Below the pieces are notes generated by a model. That model worked only from the letters and a program-made list of their open reading frames with translations, searched no databases and was not told the DNA's origin. A stretch of 49,768 nt of DNA, taken from the NCBI GenBank assembly GCA_017449495.1, contig JAFTFO010000007.1, forward strand, positions 1-49,768, written 5' to 3'. Shown here piece after piece: positions 33,161-42,813 of the stretch (its first letter is position 1; each line of letters starts with the position of its first letter). The DNA is from Prevotella sp. GTDB taxonomy: Bacteria > Bacteroidota > Bacteroidia > Bacteroidales > Bacteroidaceae. The translations under genes were made by a program, and so were the position numbers.

Positions 33161-33185
33161 AAAATAGTCTTTTTTGCATAAAATG

Positions 33186-33219
33186 CCGTCGTAAATATAA
33201 ATTTACGGCGGTTTTTTTT
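33186..33219 (+). terminator. Rho-independent terminator after the M13 peptidase
   Basis: CCGTCGTAAAT (33186-33196) pairs with ATTTACGGCGG (33201-33211) with one G-T pair. Eight T residues follow. Confidence 0.9.
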
Positions 33220-33247
33220 GTGAGTTAAGTATTTTTTGCTATCTTTG
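33217..33247 (+). promoter_or_regulatory. Promoter of the kinase/AAA/FHA/phosphatase cluster
   Basis: TTTG at 33217-33220 and TATCTTTG at 33240-33247 are 19 bp apart, an ideal Bacteroidetes promoter, 31 bp before the first ATG. It starts inside the T tract of the preceding terminator. Confidence 0.8.
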
Positions 33248-33278: not shown

Positions 33279-34217
33279 ATGGACGAAGATATTACACTAC
33301 ATCCAGAAAAGAATAGTGAGGAAGTGCTTGAGAGACAGCATGAGGAAATCAGTCTGACTCATGATGCTGAAACCGATGGTGAGCAGCAGATGCAGATGCA
33401 AAGTGCCGTCGGCGTGAAGTGCCCCCACTGCGGAACAATCAATGATCCTGAGGCGGTCTATTGTGCATCATGTGGACAGCCTATCGGCAAGATGGCCTGT
33501 CCTAACTGTGGGGCGGAACTGGACCCCGATGCTGACTTCTGTGAGTCGTGTCGCAGATATGTCAGGATGGACGTCTGTTCTTTCTGCGGAGCTGGACTGT
33601 CCAGCAACGACGCCTTTTGTCCTGAGTGCGGTAGCCCCAGGGGTGGCATTGTCTGTCCGGTATGTCATACATTGAACGACTTCTCATTCTGCAAACAGTG
33701 TGGGACAGCCCTGACGGAGGAGGCTCGGCAGCTGCTCGAAAGAGTCCACGAGATGCCCGAGTTCAAGGAGCTGCAGAGGTTGGCTACCGGTCTTCAGCAG
33801 TTGGAACAGTCTATCCCTTACTCCTCAGAGCGTGACCTGCTCAAGGACCAGCGGAACATCAAACTGCGTGAACGGGTTCTCACCTTGTTGGCAGAAGACC
33901 GCGGTATTGCTCATCCGGTGATTCCTGATGCAGAGAACAAACGGTTGAGCAAGGAGGAGTATGATGCCAAGAAGAAGGAACGCCTCGAACAGATCGCTGC
34001 CATCCTGGATAAGTTGGTGCAGGCTCCGCAGCCGAAACCGGCCCAGGTGCGCAACTATGCGATGGCCTGTCGGCCTCAAGGTGTCAGACTGGCATGGGAG
34101 TGTAATTTCAAGCACGCCCTCCACTCCAGTCCCTGTGGCTGTGCCAAACCACAGTTAGGTGGCAAGTGGGTTATTCTTGGCAAAGACGTAAGAAAGGAAA
34201 TTAAAGACGATTTGTAA
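33279..34217 (+). CDS. Four-zinc-ribbon protein, first gene of the cluster
   Basis: The 312-residue protein has four CxxC...CxxC zinc ribbons: C48/C51-C62/C65, C74/C77-C88/C91, C100/C103-C114/C117 and C126/C129-C138/C141. An acidic N-terminus (1-45) contains T6 in DITLHPE, similar to motifs in the kinase tail. The middle (about 145-255) is helical and charged. The end has PCGCAKPQLGG and GKWVILGK. No transmembrane segment is visible. It is probably a scaffold or adaptor. The kinase gene follows after 5 bp. Two other proteins of the cluster also start with zinc ribbons of this type, which suggests a shared assembly. Confidence 0.8.
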   Translation: MDEDITLHPEKNSEEVLERQHEEISLTHDAETDGEQQMQMQSAVGVKCPHCGTINDPEAVYCASCGQPIGKMACPNCGAELDPDADFCESCRRYVRMDVCSFCGAGLSSNDAFCPECGSPRGGIVCPVCHTLNDFSFCKQCGTALTEEARQLLERVHEMPEFKELQRLATGLQQLEQSIPYSSERDLLKDQRNIKLRERVLTLLAEDRGIAHPVIPDAENKRLSKEEYDAKKKERLEQIAAILDKLVQAPQPKPAQVRNYAMACRPQGVRLAWECNFKHALHSSPCGCAKPQLGGKWVILGKDVRKEIKDDL

Positions 34218-34222
34218 AAGAT

Positions 34223-37210
34223 ATGAGTACGGAAAGAACCTTGGATACAGAACGTCCAGAAGAGACGGATCAGACGTTGCGGCCTGATCAGGATACGACG
34301 ATGCGCCCTACGACCATCGAGCCGGAGGCTCCCTTGTTGGACGGTACGGCGCGAGCTGACGGTATCGGCGTTTCGAATGATGATGTCAAGGAAGATAGTT
34401 TTATCCTAAAAGGTATCAGCTACAAACGACTGAGTGTCCTGAGTGACAACTCTGGCGAGGCACAGGTATTCCTCGTGGAACATGACGGGGATACATACGT
34501 CCTGAAGATCTATTATCCGAACTTCGATGTGAATAAGAAAATCCTTCAGGCCGTGTATAACTTCGGTTTTGAGATGATCGTCAGGGTCTATGACTTCGGA
34601 AAGACCTATGTTGACGGCAAACACCGGTATTATGAACTGATGGAGTATCTGAAGGGAGGTACGTTGTCGCAGTATCGCCTGAACGGTGATATGGATAAGT
34701 TCCGCCGCATCGCCCTGCAGGCTGCTGCCGCTTTGGCCTATTGTCATCAGAGCAACATCCTGCACAAGGATGTCAAGCCCAGCAACTTCTTCTTCCGCGA
34801 CCAGGAACATACGGAGCTGGTGCTGGGAGACTTTGGTATCTCGAGTCTGTTAGACCAGGATGGTAAGGCCCATAAGACCACTCAGGCCCGTACCCCAATC
34901 TTCGCTGCGCCGGAGATGTATGCCGATGTCATAGACGGTGTGGTGGAGGTGACACCTGCCGCCGACTTCTATTCGTTAGGCATCACCTTGATGGCACTGT
35001 GGTTGGGAGAGTCGCCCATGAGTTCCAATGAACGGGTGATGATGCGTCAGAAGAATGAGGGTCGCATCCCCCACATGAACGAGCTGCCTGAGCGTATCAG
35101 ACTGCTTGTGCAGGGACTGACCGTTGTGAACCCCACCAAGCGCTGGGGATATGACCAAGTGGAGGAGTGGTTCTTAGGCGGAACGCCTCAAGTGGACCTG
35201 TCTTCACCTTTCCTGAAGTATAAGAGTTTCATCGTGGATCCGGATCGTAACATCGTGGCTGATAACATCCATGAGCTGATACCTCTGCTCCTCGATAATG
35301 AGAAATTGGCGATGGGCTATCTGTATAATGGCCGTATCAGCAGTTGGCTGGAATCTTGTGGCAACCAGAAACTGAGTACCATCGTCAGGGATATCGTGGT
35401 GAATCGCTATCCCGTCGATCAGCGGGCAGGCTTGATGGCTGCTGTCTATGCCATGGAGCCGACCTATCCTTATAAGGATGTGAAGGGAAACTTGTGCGAC
35501 GATGTGCATAGCGTGGCTATCTCACTGCTGAGCTATCAGAAGGAGTATGGACTGTTGCTGACCAACCCAAACGACAGCCTGTTCTTGTATCTGGAGTCGC
35601 ATACGAAATGCCATGTGGACCGTATTCGTTCTTATTTCGTAAAGAAAGATCCTTCCCTGAATCGTGTGGCCATCATCAGGACGGCTTTTGAGATAGACCC
35701 GGAGATTCCGTTGCTCGCTCGCTACCCGTCTTCTTCGTTGAAGGAGATCGTGAAAGCGTTCGGTAGGGAAAAACTGCCGGAGGATGACTGGCGCAGCCTG
35801 ACGGACGGTCGCCTGTTGTCGTGGATGTACAGTCATGAGGATCGGATGGCTTGTGAGAGTCTCAGAATCCTGACGGAGGGGCAGCCCTATTCAGAGGCCC
35901 TGGCGTATAAGGTGCTTTATAACCTGGACCGTGATGCCGCTTACGATCTGAAACGAGCCTTCACGCCTGCCCAGATTGGCGAATATCTCTCTGAACGTCT
36001 GAAGAATGCTGAACATCTCGGAGATAAGGAGTTCAAGGAGGTGATGAGTGACCTGACGGATCTGAATGGTCGTTTCAGCTATTATGCCCAGTTACATGGA
36101 TGGACGGAGATCCTGAGCGAGTATAACCGCAGCTTCGATCTGAAGTCGGAAGAGAACCGGTATCGTCTGGGACTCTACGACTATAAGACGGCTGCCTACC
36201 GTTTCTGCCGTATCCTCGGTGTGACGCCAGCCTATCAGATGCCTGACGGGACGGAGTATACCGACGGGCTGAACTTGAACGTCCATAACAACTCCCAACT
36301 TCGTAATGAGATCCGTAATGGCTCGTTCACGCAGTGGCTGTCTATCTTCTATCACGAGAATCCGTTTGCCGATTTCTCCGAACAGTATGCTTACGAGCGG
36401 TCGCTGGAACAGTGGCTGAGAGCCCTTGGTAGCATTGACTCCTCTTATACTTATTATAAGCGGTTCACTGATGCCCGTGATGAGACGACCAAGAGAGTGC
36501 AGAGTGTCAGGGACAACTGGGCTCTGGCCAAGAGCAGGGAGAATCTGTGGCGAACAGTGTTCTATTCGTTATGTGGCATCTGGATCCTGTTGGTGCTGTT
36601 CATCGGTGTCAAGGATCGTACCTATTTGTTGAATCATACCTTCCTCTGCATCGGTCTCCCGTTGGGTGGCATGACAGGTATTATTGTAGGAACAAGAGCC
36701 TATTTCAGGGGATATGACTTCTTCTTCTCCTTCCTATGGAGTATAGCGGGTGCCTTCACCTCCTTTATACCTATTTTAATTCTTAAATATATCGGCCAGT
36801 CTCATCCGAGCCTGTTCAATGTGGCCATCATCCTCATTACCCTGGCCTATATGCTGATCTGTCATCTGACGGACTTCCGGGGTGATCAGAAGGCAGACAG
36901 CAAACTGATTTCTGAGGTACTTGATGACGATGTGAAGTCAACGTTGCTGGAGCCGTTGTATTATACTTTCAAGACAAAGTCCTATAAGTTTAATGGCTCT
37001 AAGTTCGGTATGTTGAACGATGTGATGGATCAGGTACGTTCCATCAGTGGTGAGAGTGTACTGCACTATGTGCTTTGGAGTATTCTGGCGCTGATCTTCG
37101 TCTTGAACTTCATCATCTTCAGCCCCAGTCTGCTGAATGTCAGCAACCCGGATAAACTCAGTATCTCTCCTACAAAGGTGATACGCCAAATAGAAAAAGA
37201 TGTGGAATAA
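34223..37210 (+). CDS. Membrane-anchored Ser/Thr protein kinase
   Basis: The 995-residue protein has an N-terminal Thr-rich tail (1-60) with three TxRP motifs at T9, T18 and T26. The kinase domain (about 65-325) has a weak glycine loop, K95 (YVLKIYY), the catalytic HKDVKPSN with D183, D203-F-G, APE (229-231) and D248, so it should be active. About 330-770 is a long helical region of unknown type. Four hydrophobic segments lie at about 775-885 and another at about 950-975, anchoring the protein in the inner membrane with the kinase in the cytoplasm. Its stop and the next start overlap (TAATG), coupling translation to the AAA protein. It has no PASTA domains. Confidence 0.88.
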
Positions 37211-40200
37211 TGGTTTGTGAGAATTGTCATAAGGAAAACAGAAGCGTAGCGAAGTTCTGCAAGTGGTGCGGTGCTCCATTGGCCAGTCAGGACTTGCTGG
37301 ACCGTCTGGTAGGACTTGATGAGGTGAAGCGGCAGTTGAAGACGATTGTCAACACCTATACCTACCTTCAGTCCCGCAAGGATATCGCTAAGGTCCGTAT
37401 CTCCGTCAATGCCATCGTCATTGGTGAGACAGGAACGGGTAAGACCATGCTTGCTGAGATCCTTCGTGACTATTTCTACAAACATAAGATCATAGAGAAG
37501 CCGAAACTGACGATGGTCGACGCCGTGGACTATCAGCGGTTTGTGGACAAGTGGGACGATAATATCAAGAAGGCAAAGGGAGGTATCTTGTTCTTCGACA
37601 ATGTGCAGAAACTCCTGCCTGATAAATATTCCAATCAAGTGAATCCGCTCGACAAGTTGTTCGTGGAGATGGATAAATGGGAGGATAATCCCATCGTGGT
37701 CATCTCTGGTCTGACGAAGGGTCTGGAGGACTTCCTTGAGAGCAATCCGGCCGTCACAAACCGTTTCAAGTACACCTTCCGTCTACCCACTCCCGGCTAT
37801 CATGAGCTGACGGACATCTGTAAGATGAACCTGCGGACCAGGTATGGTATCACCAAGTTCTCGCAAGAGGCAGAAAACCAGCTCTCTCGCTACTTCAAAT
37901 ATCAGGTCAAGACTAAGGACGAGCTCTTTGGCAACGGTCATCTGGCCCATAAGACAGCCGAGGATATCTTCACCCAGTTCATCAGCCGTGGGGCCGACGC
38001 AGAACAGGTGGAGCGGGATGACATCAAGGGCTATGTGCCGGAGGAACGGACCGTTGAGGATATCCTGAAGGATCTCGACAGGTTCATCGGTATGGACGAG
38101 GTGAAGAGCGCTGTTCGTGAGATGGCCTTCTCCGTACAGAACAGCATCCAGCGGGCTGAGCGTGGCTTGGGGGGGCAAGAGAAGATGTCGATGCATATCA
38201 TCCTGACGGGTAACCCCGGAACGGGAAAGACGACCATCGCCAGGAAACTGGGTGAGATATTGGCATCTGTAGGATACCTTGACAGTGGTCATGTCGTAGA
38301 GGTGGACCGTGCGAAGATGGTGAGCCCCTATCAGGGGGAGACCCCTAAGGTGGTTGACCGTCTGTGCGACAAGGCGATGGGGGGCATCCTCTTTGTGGAT
38401 GAGGCTTATACCCTTGCCCCGTTGAATGTCTCTGGAGAACGTGACAACCAAGGCGCCCAGGCGCTGGAGAAACTGATGAAGCGTATGGAGGACGACCGTG
38501 GGAAGTTTGTTGTCATCGCCGCCGGCTATCGCATGGAGATGGAGAACCTCTTCCGCATCAACCCGGGTTTCCGCAGTCGTTTCAACTATTTCCTTGATAT
38601 AAAGGACTATACGCCAGACCAGTTGTTTGGGATCATGCTCGTCTTTGCGAAGGATAAGAAATACATCTTCTCGAAAGAGGGAGAGGAACTGGCCCGTAAG
38701 ATGATCACGGAGATGTATAACTCCCGTGACAAGGACTTTGCGAACGGTCGTACCATGCGTTCGCTCTTCGACCAGATCTGCAAGAAGCAGGCACAGCGGC
38801 TGCAGGCTGCCAATATTGCCAATATGACGAACGAGGAGCTGATGACCATCACGGCAGAGGATATTCCTTACGAGGCTCCTAAGTCGGTGGATATTACCGA
38901 CTGTCTCGCAAAACTTGAAGGTCTGGTGGGACTCACTGCCGTGAAGAAGGAAGTATCCAACTTGGCCTCCTTCCTCAATCTGCAGATTATGCGTGGTGAG
39001 ACCAATACCTTCCAAGGGAAACATTATGTCTTCACAGGTAATCCCGGTACGGGTAAAACCACCGTCGCTCGTATCATGGCCGATATCTTCAGGACCTTAG
39101 GCATTGTGGCGAAGGGTCAACTGGTGGAGGCCGACCGCTCGAAGCTGGTGGCAGGCTTCTCCGGGCAGACAGCCATCAAGACCAACCAGTTGGTGGATCA
39201 GGCCATGGGTGGCGTGCTGTTCATCGATGAGGCTTATACGTTGAAGTCTGGCGATGGTGACACCTTCGGCTCCGAAGCTATCGACACGCTGTTGAAGCGA
39301 CTGGAAGACGACCGCGGCAAGTTTATCTGTATTGTGGCCGGCTATACTGATCAGATGCACGACTTCATCGATTCAAACCCGGGTCTGAAGAGTCGTTTCA
39401 CGCAGACCATTCATTTCGACGACTATACACCTGATGAGCTGACCGAGATATTCCTCAATCTGGCTAAAGGCAAGAACTTCAATGTCGACGAGGAGACCCG
39501 TGCGGCCATCCATCGCCAGTTTGAGCAGCTCTACCTGCGCCGGGATAAGAACTTCGGAAATGCCCGTGAGGCCAGAAGGGTGTTCGACGAGGCTGTCGAG
39601 CGCCAGAGTCAGCGTCTGGTGAAGCTGATGAACGATCCCGGCTTCCAGGAGAGTGATATGTATAGCTTGACGACCGACGATCTGCCCATGGCACAGAGCG
39701 AGGCAGCCCGTCCGCTCGACGAGGTGCTCAACGAACTTGATGAGTTTGTGGGTATGCGCTCTGTAAAGAACTCTATCCGCCGGCTGGCCGTACAGAGCAT
39801 GTTCATGAAGCAGCGTGCCGCCATGGGAGCAGGAAAGGTTCAGCAGATGGCGATGAACTTCATACTGACAGGTAATCCTGGAACGGGAAAGACCTCTATC
39901 GCCAGGAAGATGGGTGAGATACTCCAGGCAATGGATATTCTGCCTACGTCGAGGGTGCTGGAGGTGAGCCGTGCCACCTTGGTTGGAAAGTATATGGGTG
40001 AGACGCCGAAGATCGTCAACAATATGTGTGACAAGGCTATCGGCGGCATCCTGTTCATCGACGAGGCCTATACCCTCAGTGAGGGCACAGACCAGTATGG
40101 TAAGGAAGCTATCGACACGCTGATGAAACGTATGGAAGACGACCGTGGTAAGTTCGTGGTGATCGCTGCTGGCTATAAGGATAAGATGGAGGCGTTCCTT

Positions 40201-40515
40201 CAGATTAATCCGGGCCTTGCCAGTCGTTTCACTCACAAGCTTCACATCGACGACTATAACGAAGACGAGTTGCTGGCCATTTACAAGCAGATGGCTCAGA
40301 AGGAACAGTACACGCTCTCGCCGACGGCAGAGTTCAAGGCACTTGACACCATTTACAGGATGGTGCTGGCCAAGGATGAGTCGTGGGGCAATGCCCGTGA
40401 GATGCGTAACCTGCTTGACGCAACGATTCAGAAACTTTCGCTCCGGGTGTCACAGATGCCCAGTGATCAGGTGACGAAAGAAACGTATCAGTTAATATTA
40501 CCAGAAGATATATAA
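37210..40515 (+). CDS. Zinc-ribbon protein with four CbxX/CfqX-type AAA modules
   Basis: The 1101-residue protein starts with a zinc ribbon (C3/C6-C17/C20). Four AAA modules follow. Module 1 has Walker A GETGTGKT (72-79) and GGILFFDN (Walker B with N131 instead of Glu). Modules 2, 3 and 4 have GNPGTGKT (334-341, 610-617, 888-895) and intact VDEAYTL/IDEAYTL (E398, E674, E952). Modules 2-4 are the CbxX/CfqX type, as in Rubisco activase CbbX and the ESX protein EccA; module 1 is diverged and probably unable to hydrolyse ATP. The fused modules could form a pseudo-hexamer or a large remodelling machine. The substrate is unknown. Confidence 0.88.
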
Positions 40516-40549
40516 TAAAGGTAAGAAGGTAAAAAGGTTAAGTGAAAAT
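40516..40549. repeat. Intra-cluster microrepeat, GTAAAAAGGT type
   Basis: AAAGGTAAGAAGGTAAAAAGG lies between the AAA and FHA genes, here quoted with one base more than the repeat needs: the unit is GGTAARAAG. It resembles the gaps at 12069 and 16089. Confidence 0.55.
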
Positions 40550-41104
40550 ATGATAATTTGTCCGACTTGTAAAGAAGAGATTGACGACGATTCCCGCTAT
40601 TGTGACCAGTGTGGACAGGCTCTGCTGTATTGTAACCAGTGTGGCCGGGTAGGCATTGGCCGACGTTGTACCTATTGCGGTGGTCTCATGGTGCCTCCCG
40701 GCAGTGAGACACAGCATGCGGGGGATAGCTTTGCTTCAGTGGGATATGCCACATACGGTTCCCTCAGACAGGAAGATTCACGTCATGGAACGGGTGGGGG
40801 AAACATGCCCGTGCTGACACTTGCCAACGACAATCTGAATATCCGGATTGTGGCCATGAATGGTGCTATTATCGGTCGTCGCAAAGGACCCTATACTCAT
40901 TTCTTTGAGAAACAAGCATACGTGTCGGGTGTTCATGCCCAACTGATGTATAATGCCCAGACGGGATGGGGTGTCGTCGACAAACATTCCTCCAACGGAA
41001 CGAAACTAAACCAGCGCCAGATACAGCCTGATGTGGAGATGACATTGAACAATGGGGATATCCTGACGATTGCAAATGTCAATCTGCAAGTCATTATTAG
41101 ATAA
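40550..41104 (+). CDS. Zinc-ribbon / FHA domain protein
   Basis: The 184-residue protein has an N-terminal double zinc ribbon (C4/C7-C18/C21 and C28/C31-C40/C43), a linker (45-85) and a C-terminal FHA domain (about 88-184). The phosphothreonine-binding residues are present: G109-R110, S126 and H129 in YVSGVHAQL, and N149-G150-T151 in HSSNGTKL. It should bind phosphothreonine on partner proteins, probably made by the adjacent kinase. Six bp separate it from the phosphatase gene. Confidence 0.87.
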   Translation: MIICPTCKEEIDDDSRYCDQCGQALLYCNQCGRVGIGRRCTYCGGLMVPPGSETQHAGDSFASVGYATYGSLRQEDSRHGTGGGNMPVLTLANDNLNIRIVAMNGAIIGRRKGPYTHFFEKQAYVSGVHAQLMYNAQTGWGVVDKHSSNGTKLNQRQIQPDVEMTLNNGDILTIANVNLQVIIR

Positions 41105-41110
41105 AGACAG

Positions 41111-41857
41111 ATGATTGAATTGAATATATCTGCTGCCAGCTGGACTGGCCGCGTGAGAAGTCAGAACGAGGATATGGTGTTGGTGGATCACCAGTTTATC
41201 CGTGAAGACTCCTGTCAGACCCAGTTCGTCTTAGGACGTGAAGATCGTCTGCTGATAGCTGTTGCCGATGGGATGGGAGGCCACAACCGTGGAGATGTGG
41301 CCAGTTATGATACCCTGCACAACCTCGAGTATTATTTCTACGATATCCCGTCGAGCCTCACTGCCGGCGACTTCAACGAAGCCATTGTAGACTGGCTGGA
41401 TTCCATCAATAACTACATCATCTCAAAAGGCCGTGCCGACGAGCAGTTCAAGGGCATGGGGACAACATTGGTAGGCTTCGCCTATTACAACAACGACTTC
41501 TACTCATTGAACTGTGGTGACAGCCGCCTGTATCGTTTCCACAACCACCAGTTGACTCAGTTGACGAAAGATCACTCATTGAGTAATATGTTGGCTGATG
41601 AGAAGCGTACAAACATCATCACCAACTGTATCGGTGGGGGATTCAACTCATCCTTTATCGACATGGTACAGATGACGGGCGATGTGGCTCAGGGTGATGT
41701 GTTCCTGCTCTGTAGCGACGGACTGACTGATATGCTCCCCGACGGGGAGATAAGTGGTCTTTTTGAACAGCATGCCGATGCCAGCGCCCTCTGTAGCGCA
41801 GCCATTGAGGCTGGAGGTATTGACAATGTCTCCTGTTGTGTGATAACCGTCAAATAA
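41111..41857 (+). CDS. PP2C-family Ser/Thr phosphatase
   Basis: The 248-residue protein is a single, complete PP2C domain: RSQNEDM near residue 16, VADGMGGH with D53-G54, MGTTLVG, CGDSRLYRF, LCSDGLTD and GGIDNVSCCVI. It is metal-dependent and would reverse the phosphorylation made by the adjacent kinase. No signal peptide or membrane segment is present. It is the last gene of the cluster; the next gene (metA) is 38 bp downstream without a clear promoter, so they may share a transcript. Confidence 0.92.
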   Translation: MIELNISAASWTGRVRSQNEDMVLVDHQFIREDSCQTQFVLGREDRLLIAVADGMGGHNRGDVASYDTLHNLEYYFYDIPSSLTAGDFNEAIVDWLDSINNYIISKGRADEQFKGMGTTLVGFAYYNNDFYSLNCGDSRLYRFHNHQLTQLTKDHSLSNMLADEKRTNIITNCIGGGFNSSFIDMVQMTGDVAQGDVFLLCSDGLTDMLPDGEISGLFEQHADASALCSAAIEAGGIDNVSCCVITVK

Positions 41858-41895
41858 TTAATTGTAAATAGTAAATTGTCAAATCGTAAATATAG
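41858..41895. repeat. Intergenic microrepeat, TAAATTGT/CGTAAAT type
   Basis: The gap consists of short repeats of the kind TTGTAAATAGTAAATTGTCA. No terminator or promoter box is seen between the phosphatase and metA. Confidence 0.65.
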
Positions 41896-42813
41896 ATGCC
41901 ATTAAGATTACCCGATAAACTTCCCGCCATCGACCTGTTGAAGAATGAGAATATCTTCGTGATGGACAACACCAGGGCACATGCACAGGATATCCGTCCC
42001 TTGAGGATTGCCATCCTGAACCTGATGCCGCTGAAGATTACCACCGAGACAGACCTGATCCGTCTGCTCTCCAACACCCCGTTGCAGTTGGATATCAGTT
42101 TCATGAAGCTGAAGAGCCATACGCCGAAGAATACGCCGATAGAGCACATGATGATGTTCTACCGTGACTTTGCGGAGATGCGTCATGAGAAATACGACGG
42201 CATGATCATCACGGGGGCACCAGTTGAGCAACTCGACTACGAGGATGTCGGGTATTGGAGTGAGATAACTGAGATCTTTACTTGGGCCCGGACGCATGTA
42301 ACCAGTACCTTATATATATGTTGGGCTGCTCAGGCAGGTCTCTATTTCCACTATGGGGTGCCGAAGTATCCACTGCCGATGAAGATGTTCGGCATCTTCC
42401 CTCAGAAGCCATTGGACCCCCAACTGCCTATCTTCCGGGGCTTCGATGACGTGTTCATGATGCCTCATAGCCGCCATACGGAGTTACGTCGTGACGATAT
42501 CCTCGCCAACCCCGAACTGAGCCTGATCGCCGAGTCGGATGAGAGTGGCGTGAGCATCGTGATGGCTCGGGGGGGACGTGAGTTCTTCATCACAGGCCAT
42601 CTGGAATATGCGCCCAATACCCTCGATAACGAGTATCGTCGCGATAAGGATATTCGTAAGGATGTGGCACCTCCCCGGAATTACTATCGCAATAATAATC
42701 CTGAGAACCCGCCGTTGGTCACCTGGCGCTCCCATGCGAACCTCTTCTACACGAACTGGGTGAACTACTACGTCTATCAGGAGACACCTTATAATATTAA
42801 TGACATCACTTGA
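41896..42813 (+). CDS. metA: Homoserine O-acyltransferase MetA, predicted acetyl-CoA type
   Basis: The 305-residue enzyme acylates homoserine in methionine synthesis. The nucleophile is C142 (ICWAAQAGLY), with H235 and E237 in FITGHLEY. The residue that sets acyl-CoA choice in this family, position 111, is Glu (TGAPVEQLDY). From studies of the family, Glu111 goes with acetyl-CoA and Gly111, as in E. coli, with succinyl-CoA. It is thus probably an acetyltransferase despite its MetA fold. Its end overlaps the U32 peptidase gene by 14 bp. Confidence 0.92.
   Translation: MPLRLPDKLPAIDLLKNENIFVMDNTRAHAQDIRPLRIAILNLMPLKITTETDLIRLLSNTPLQLDISFMKLKSHTPKNTPIEHMMMFYRDFAEMRHEKYDGMIITGAPVEQLDYEDVGYWSEITEIFTWARTHVTSTLYICWAAQAGLYFHYGVPKYPLPMKMFGIFPQKPLDPQLPIFRGFDDVFMMPHSRHTELRRDDILANPELSLIAESDESGVSIVMARGGREFFITGHLEYAPNTLDNEYRRDKDIRKDVAPPRNYYRNNNPENPPLVTWRSHANLFYTNWVNYYVYQETPYNINDIT

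Follow-up and report, generated by a model that had tools for sequence, protein, structure and literature searches.

Introduction

The closest described relatives of the locus analyzed here are circuits built of a kinase, an FHA reader of phosphothreonine and a phosphatase. The locus lies in a 49,768-nucleotide stretch of Prevotella sp. DNA (GenBank assembly GCA_017449495.1, contig JAFTFO010000007.1; the whole stretch is called the window). Five adjacent + strand open reading frames (ORFs) at positions 33279-41857 encode a zinc-ribbon protein, a membrane Ser/Thr kinase, a protein with tandem AAA modules, a zinc-ribbon/FHA protein and a PP2C phosphatase. In the type VI secretion system (T6SS), PpkA, Fha and PppA are likewise a membrane Ser/Thr kinase, an FHA reader of phosphothreonine and a PP2C-type phosphatase; Fha reads a phosphothreonine of TssL (PMC3953482), and PpkA phosphorylates Fha, both forming condensates that recruit T6SS parts (PMC12607579). 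The archaeal ArnA-ArnB-ArnC/D circuit includes a protein with a zinc finger and an FHA domain, and FHA domains are described as reading phosphothreonine and mostly not phosphoserine (PMC6509490). Among type VII secretion systems (T7SS), a kinase with a PPM phosphatase and a separate FHA protein is described for T7SSe, and for the AAA+ protein TsfV of T7SSf no detectable homology with EccA is reported (PMC11217815). Kinase genes together with PP2C and vWA genes were reported by Kaur et al. in GTPase-centred systems, with zinc-ribbon GTPases; the available portion of that paper does not contain this five-gene set (PMC7159879).

The operon differs from the T6SS circuit in its motor, which is of a tandem CbbX type, and in the zinc ribbons carried by three of its five proteins. 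Unlike the Arn circuit, it has no vWA partner among the five proteins and no archaellum, but it has an AAA machine. CbbX, a rubisco activase, and EccA carry one AAA module, whereas in the AAA protein of the operon each chain combines three to five modules with a zinc ribbon, and the head module is altered. No red-type rubisco gene was found among nine flanking proteins scanned. The TerY-P triad consists of a vWA protein (TerY), a kinase and a PP2C phosphatase; the operon shares the last two, and no vWA domain occurs among the Pfam families listed for the five proteins (for the AAA protein, the best 25 of 76). MADS is a MAD1-MAD8 gene set with a methyltransferase; only the kinase domain of the operon resembles MAD6 (84 of 460 bits), and the nine flanking proteins are not of that kind. 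IetAS combines the IetA ATPase with the IetS protease; here the AAA match is generic (74 of 510 bits), and the same Pfam families include no protease. The zinc-ribbon and PP2C parts of the Ser/Thr phosphatase NF011149 (PRK14559) of NCBIfam match the first, fourth and fifth proteins of the operon, but NF011149 is one protein of 642 positions, and the three score 36.6, 21 and 68.2 of 374 bits, far below the cut-off.

An earlier note on this DNA, made from the sequence alone, could not name the combination and left room for a characterised system with the same five genes. The literature searched holds no description of one, which is weak evidence because subscription papers lay mostly outside its scope. 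The operon is a phospho-signalling and remodelling unit that is undescribed as far as our searches reach. Its parts are of known kinds; what is new is their combination, the repeat docking tail of the kinase and the head-plus-array AAA protein. We consider it probable that a membrane-anchored phosphothreonine switch sets the place and time at which an AAA+ remodelling motor of tandem CbbX type acts.

Gene content and conservation of the operon

The genes were labelled ZR (gene 1), KIN (gene 2), AAA (gene 3), ZR-FHA, or FHA (gene 4), and PP2C (gene 5). They are separated by 5, -1, 34 and 6 bp.

33279..34217, + strand: ZR, four-zinc-ribbon protein, 312 aa (ORF, Pfam double zinc ribbons)
34223..37210, + strand: KIN, membrane Ser/Thr kinase, 995 aa (ORF, Pfam Pkinase 9e-31)
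37210..40515, + strand: AAA, zinc ribbon and four AAA modules, 1101 aa (ORF, Pfam, NCBIfam, motifs)
40550..41104, + strand: ZR-FHA, double zinc ribbon and FHA domain, 184 aa (Pfam FHA 3e-11)
41111..41857, + strand: PP2C phosphatase, 248 aa (Pfam PP2C_2 4e-13; metal-binding Asp kept)

The packing, the ORFs and the domains are exactly as the earlier note had described them, with a refinement in the AAA protein that is given below.

A search of the genome collection with the AAA protein found 196 relatives, and the best 80, all labelled Prevotella, Prevotellaceae or Xylanibacter, were used. They include Xylanibacter ruminicola (L076), a cultured rumen strain. Gene order was scored by tblastn at 1e-5, with the best hit per gene and no coverage cut. 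All five genes were in order at 77 of the 80 loci. The other three loci begin close to the edge of a contig; in L085, PP2C is missing before metA as well. All five genes look to be under selection because the ratio of nonsynonymous to synonymous substitution rates (dN/dS) against four near relatives is 0.03-0.13, at dS values of 0.6-3.2 that are partly saturated; one PP2C value could not be computed. In the comparison with L034, the nearest relative, dN/dS ranges from 0.03 (AAA) to 0.13 (PP2C), at a high dS of 0.7-1.6. The order kept at 77 loci, together with these ratios, excludes chance grouping. The five genes are a real, conserved unit.

Protein distances were compared in the 37 of the 80 loci in which nine genes were comparable at >90% coverage. 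Among ZR, KIN and AAA the correlation of these distances is 0.91-0.93; with ABC-F, the M13 peptidase, MetA and the U32 peptidase it falls to 0.61-0.76. For FHA and PP2C the correlation is 0.73-0.87 with the other module genes and 0.54-0.81 with the flanks, and the flanking genes correlate at 0.50-0.76 among themselves.

Kinase and its threonine tail

Four regions were distinguished in KIN.

34223..34384, + strand: N-terminal tail with D-x-T-[LIVM]-R(P) repeats (motif counts)
34484..35161, + strand: catalytic domain with Lys95, HxDxKxxN, DFG and APE (Pfam, alignment)
35174..36532, + strand: middle region of about 450 aa, no family match (Pfam, NCBIfam)
36554..37123, + strand: four hydrophobic segments, aa 778-967, near the C-terminus

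The family-level set consisted of 88 kinases (the window, 76 from the 80 Prevotellaceae loci and 11 others) and the phylum-wide set of 16. Lys95, HxDxKxxN, DFG and the PE of APE are present in 88/88 and 16/16, respectively, and on these residues KIN is predicted to be an active Hanks-type kinase. Four or five hydrophobic segments were found in 14 of the 16 phylum-wide kinases, three in L195 and two in L194. The earlier description of an active-looking membrane kinase thus agrees with the alignments.

The tail ahead of the catalytic domain is 36-293 residues long and rich in [DE]-x-T-[LIVM]-R(P). The strict form [DE]xT[LIVM][RK] occurs in 148 copies in 75 of the 88 tails, compared with 2.2 copies in shuffles (sd 1.4, maximum 7), which ignore relatedness. 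The phylum-wide set shows differing tail sequences with the same motif, in 30 copies in 9 of the 16 tails (0.4 expected); seven DKTL motifs were found in L192, and repeated D-K-T-[IV]-R in L195, L196, L198 and L199. The reversed motif was absent from all 88 family-level tails. In these tails, T[LIVM][RK] occurs 238 times (14.6 expected) and S[LIVM][RK] seven times (10.1 expected). Judged by these counts, the motif is threonine-specific and orientation-specific. The survey was extended to 2028 ORFs of at least 80 aa in the non-viral loci and the window, among which overlaps cause a few genes to be counted twice. Two close copies of a looser form of the motif were found in 92 ORFs, 73 of which are this kinase; the other 19 have two copies each and come from few families.

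FHA, PP2C and ZR proteins

The phosphothreonine-binding residues of the FHA domain (G109, R110, S126, H129, N149 and G150) are kept in 89-90 of 90 proteins: G, S, H and D in 90/90, R in 89/90 (one gap) and N in 89/90. Phylum-wide, they are kept in 13-14 of 14, and L114 has W in place of N149. With G-R, S-x-x-H and N-G in place, ZR-FHA is a predicted phosphothreonine reader. Its profile matches archaeal ArnA (5a8i) over 3-180 of 188 positions at an E value of 2.7e-5, and FHA-only structures score better. The metal-binding Asp residues of PP2C are conserved in 85/85 family-level and 14/14 phylum-wide proteins, as expected of a putative PP2C/PPM phosphatase. The phosphothreonine circuit proposed in the earlier note is therefore likely, as far as residues kept in kinase, reader and phosphatase can indicate. 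A second, divergent PP2C gene (34% identity) is located elsewhere in the genome of the window (G000, contig C22, 117198-117995).

Two regions of ZR were mapped.

33420..33701, + strand: four zinc ribbons, eight CxxC pairs, aa 48-141 (sequence motif)
34095..34169, + strand: C-terminal motif W-x-C-N..H..P..C..P..GG-x-W, aa 273-297, no known family (alignment)

The four ribbons had been recognized before; the C-terminal motif is an addition. Its W, C, H, P, C, P, GG and W are invariant in 15/15 proteins, and the first ribbon is missing in L114-L116. In a PDB search, the ZR profile matched nothing convincingly apart from zinc ribbons, and this holds for the region of the C-terminal motif too. Many near ZR proteins start with D-I-T-L-x-P, and [DE]xT[LIVM] lies within the first 50 residues of 38 of the 84 proteins (6.5 expected).

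Head and array of the AAA protein

The AAA protein was divided into five regions.

37216..37269, + strand: N-terminal zinc ribbon, two CxxC (present in 15/15 proteins)
37297..38019, + strand: altered module 1, with DN at the end of Walker B and without the YxG[EQ]T pore loop (motif inspection)
38062..38865, + strand: module 2, canonical; best CbbX match (structure-profile match, motifs)
38887..39687, + strand: module 3, canonical; best EccA1 match (structure-profile match, motifs)
39727..40509, + strand: module 4, canonical (motifs)

Pfam found four AAA and four AAA_lid_6 stretches, and NCBIfam grouped the protein with SpoVK, EccA and CbbX, with four stretches each. The canonical modules align with the crystal structures of CbbX (3zuh, 3syk) and EccA1 (9lur), including Walker A and B, the YxG pore loop and SRF. 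Module 1 matches these structures weakly (EccA1, 1.8e-13). The earlier claim of four CbxX-type modules consequently stands for modules 2-4, which have the features of CbbX/EccA/SpoVK-type domains; module 1, with DN for DE in Walker B and no YxG[EQ]T, has them only in part.

Fifteen AAA proteins were compared. In the complete ones, the number of Walker A motifs is three in L115 and L116, five in L195, L196 and L199, and four in the others. Walker B of module 1 ends in DN in 10 of the 15, in EN in L192, in DS in L114 and in DD in L115 and L116, and L194 retains DE but has a broken Walker A. The YxG[EQ]T-type pattern was found in none of the 14 module 1 sequences scored and in 38 of 43 later modules. 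In a midpoint-rooted tree all 14 module 1 sequences form one clade, and the later modules show lineage-specific duplications. By these motifs and this tree, module 1 is a conserved but altered head in front of two to four canonical modules. We read the protein as a putative adaptor head, itself conserved, followed by an array of apparently active units that grows and shrinks.

Proposed mechanism

KIN, anchored by its C-terminal hydrophobic segments, would sense a signal and phosphorylate the threonines of the D-x-T-[LIVM]-R(P) repeats in its own tail and, in many Prevotella, that of the D-I-T-L-x-P motif at the start of ZR. The FHA protein, with its conserved binding residues, would bind these phosphothreonines and could gather the AAA motor at the membrane via the zinc ribbons that ZR and AAA also carry. 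The altered head module may serve as an adaptor, and a client would be pulled or remodelled by the canonical modules, of which there are two to four. PP2C would strip the phosphates and so reset the assembly. Among systems known to work, the T6SS circuit of PpkA and Fha is the nearest precedent. The option of a complex-remodelling device, one of three offered in the earlier note, gains support from these features.

We also propose, tentatively and at somewhat less than even odds, that the operon represents an undescribed class of machine. In such a machine the repeat tail of the kinase itself would be a multi-phosphothreonine dock that recruits and gates a single-chain CbbX-type AAA array of variable length. 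It might also seed a condensate, as for PpkA and Fha; it would be portable across the phylum, and its client would be encoded elsewhere.

Several points weigh against the proposed switch. The strict tail motif is missing in 13 of the 88 family-level tails and in 7 of the 16 phylum-wide tails (L114, L115, L116, L131, L132, L133 and L194), of which only L114 has T[LIVM][RK]. Only the 38 ZR proteins mentioned above have the N-terminal motif, and 5 of the 43 later AAA modules fail the pore-loop pattern. Contacts between the proteins through zinc ribbons are a guess. Reset by the PP2C of the operon is not essential everywhere, because the loci of G108, G137 and L085 are without PP2C; no PP2C homologue was found anywhere in G108 or G137 at E <= 0.001.

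Distribution of the module

The module was found in 12 of 151 sampled genomes of the family (G000, G005, G017, G052, G071, G073, G075, G090, G108, G109, G123 and G137) and in 4 of 10 genomes of the sampled genus; in G073 and G090 the set is divided over two contigs each. M13 and metA are adjacent in four module-free genomes of the same genus, 405, 112, 239 and 366 bp apart (L293, L294, L295 and L298), and therefore the block comes and goes as a whole. In a fifth such genome (L297) other ORFs sit between M13 and metA, and in a sixth (G136) metA was not found at 1e-50.

A KIN profile (1e-20) gave 19 matches in 295 genomes of the order. Besides that of the window, two full-length matches and one partial match belong to other families (G171, G385, G162), and the remaining 15 are confined to the first 373 of 1006 positions. 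Two of these 15 were inspected (L200, L201) and rejected as other gene sets. The ZR profile, searched against 296 genomes of the phylum, revealed five strong cases in another class (G507, G511, G557, G657 and G702), and a class-wide search in this second class of the phylum found the module in 6 of 197 genomes. Complete sets are present in L192, where AAA is divided between two ORFs, and in L193, L195, L196, L197 and L199; L194 and L198 are truncated by contig ends, and in the damaged L299 the kinase and AAA are fragmented. Outside the window and the 80 loci there are 13 complete single-locus sets, with L114-L116, L129, L131, L132 and L133 included. Poor conservation of the neighbourhood, which would have spoken against a functional unit, was thus not observed; conservation is strong and reaches a second class.

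L114-L116 come from three genomes of other genera of the family and have the module at unrelated sites. In an unrooted concatenated tree they group, at a support of 1.0, with L192 and L193, which belong to other families, and apart from the window type; two old lineages therefore coexist in the family, by transfer or differential loss. Among viral contigs, 77 loci were fetched by the AAA profile, 74 of them with an AAA ORF, and ZR, KIN, FHA and PP2C were found in none of the 77 at 1e-5. Plasmids were searched with ZR as the only query, which gave one generic zinc-ribbon match at 24% coverage.

Other gene sets were noted during these searches. L200 (8282-15877) and L201 (8764-13569) have kinase and PP2C genes beside proteins of about 510 aa that start with MSGPK, and the L200 set also has a gene resembling a radical-SAM activase. 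A second kind of multi-AAA operon occurs in the family (L125:4467-16937, L126, L127, L121, L123 and L128). It contains a radical-SAM activase, a ~500 aa unknown protein and an AAA protein, with Hsp70 in L123; the AAA protein of L125 has two AAA stretches and a trypsin-like protease domain. By eye, proteins with zinc-ribbon-like or vWA-like starts are also encoded in this operon.

Flanking genes and expression signals

The nine flanking proteins scanned are Tex, ABC-F, M13 peptidase, MetA, U32 peptidase and four without a family. Downstream of the operon, metA occurs in 79 of the 80 loci, and the only locus without it (L080) is cut by a contig end; on the upstream side, M13 was found in 71 loci and ABC-F in 73. 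The five genes are present without M13 upstream in L050-L053, and with neither M13 nor ABC-F upstream in L102. Two candidate signals precede the operon.

33185..33212, + strand: intrinsic-terminator-like hairpin of 12 pairs followed by a T run, separating the operon from the M13 peptidase gene
33217..33247, + strand: Bacteroidota-type promoter-like motif TTTG-N19-TATCTTTG, ahead of the ZR gene

The region has 5 terminator-like sites (5.9 in shuffles), and the hairpin has the longest stem. The promoter-like motif was labelled by the Bacteroidota consensus. Upstream sequence sufficed at 76 loci, and TTTG-N17-22-TANNTTTG was found at most 130 bp upstream of the ZR gene in 64 of them (0.5 expected). 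Since sigma-70 sites (8) did not exceed expectation (9.0), they were discarded and only the Bacteroidota-type motif was used.

In the window metA starts 38 bp after PP2C (stretch 41858-42813). Among the 61 loci scored, the two genes are separated by a median of 15 bp and, in 60 of them, by no more than 60 bp; because the gap is so short, metA is probably co-transcribed with the operon in the lineage of the window. Methionine synthesis may share the transcript of the operon in this lineage, given this closeness.

Alternative explanations

The AAA protein might instead be an unfoldase for stress response or quality control, with the phospho-parts regulating its expression or stability and not its recruitment. 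We regard this as unlikely, though worth keeping in view. In the 37 loci, the mean AAA distance (0.146) is like that of MetA (0.155) and ABC-F (0.154), so the protein is conserved like its housekeeping neighbours, and the pore-loop pattern of the later modules also fits an unfoldase. Such a role leaves the threonine-specific tail repeats and the conserved FHA protein unexplained.

An anti-phage or conflict system, in which KIN senses infection and the AAA machine or ZR is the effector or activator, seems rather improbable. It would agree with the patchy presence of the module in the family and the second class, its gain and loss as a block, the two divergent lineages in one family and, in PADLOC, the resemblance of the kinase domain to MAD6 and PD-T4-6. 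A closer examination of nine flanking proteins revealed a SUKH-family (SMI1/KNR4) gene directly after PP2C in the distant copy L195 (L195:10445-10963) and a transposase adjoining the damaged L299 copy. SUKH-family proteins are often immunity proteins, and the L195 gene is the one flank speaking for a conflict role. PADLOC, however, gave only generic kinase and AAA domain matches for the five proteins, and no effector domain was found among the Pfam families listed for them, with the limit for AAA given above. PADLOC at 1e-10 matched only two of 42 proteins flanking 14 other loci, a UvrA and an ABC-type ATPase; 10 of the 42 were re-scanned singly, and these two explain all six families listed. 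The mad3/mad8 and other flank matches were rejected as a defence link, as Pfam identifies the proteins as UvrA and the ABC-type ATPase. Pfam assigned 47 families to the 42 proteins, mostly metabolic or transport among the 25 listed. The constant metA neighbour and the viral contigs without the other four genes also speak against defence, an option of the earlier note that is now less supported.

That the operon controls a secretion or surface machine, in the manner of PpkA-Fha-PppA or of the kinase/PPM/FHA sets that accompany some T7SS, is improbable in our judgement. The three signalling parts are the same as in secretion control, AAA module 3 has EccA1 as its nearest solved structure, and T7SSe has kinase, PPM phosphatase and FHA genes (PMC11217815). 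The T6SS sheath protein VipB (PF05943), Bacteroidota TssC (PF17541) and WXG100 (PF06013; substrates of T7SS/EccA systems) were nevertheless found in 0 of 13 module-bearing genomes, 11 of which are at least 90% complete (G000, 68%); the absence of WXG100 also separates the operon from T7SSe. Control genomes were positive for VipB and WXG100; TssC was found in 0/14 controls, but one module-free relative (G013) was positive. The earlier remark that no secretion genes lie nearby is extended by this result.

A CbbX-like activase of a metabolic enzyme, in the lineage of the window possibly MetA, is suggested by the role of CbbX and the close metA gene but is very unlikely, as tblastn (1e-10) found no metA near L114-L116, L133, L134, L192, L193, L195-L197, L199 and L299 (for L196, only ~270 bp downstream were available), and 9 of 10 module-free genomes retain metA.

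The phosphothreonine-controlled remodelling motor remains the reading that we prefer. Of the interpretation in the earlier note, the unit, the circuit, the remodelling option and the absence of secretion genes are upheld, and the defence option has lost ground.

Significance

If our reading is true, kinase-FHA-phosphatase circuits, best known as secretion switches, would also gate free-standing remodelling motors. The operon would offer naturally occurring AAA arrays of graded length, from three through four to five units, all behind the same conserved head, and a defined, testable set of phosphothreonine sites. In rumen Prevotella, a strongly conserved operon with no role described in the literature searched would also acquire a function.

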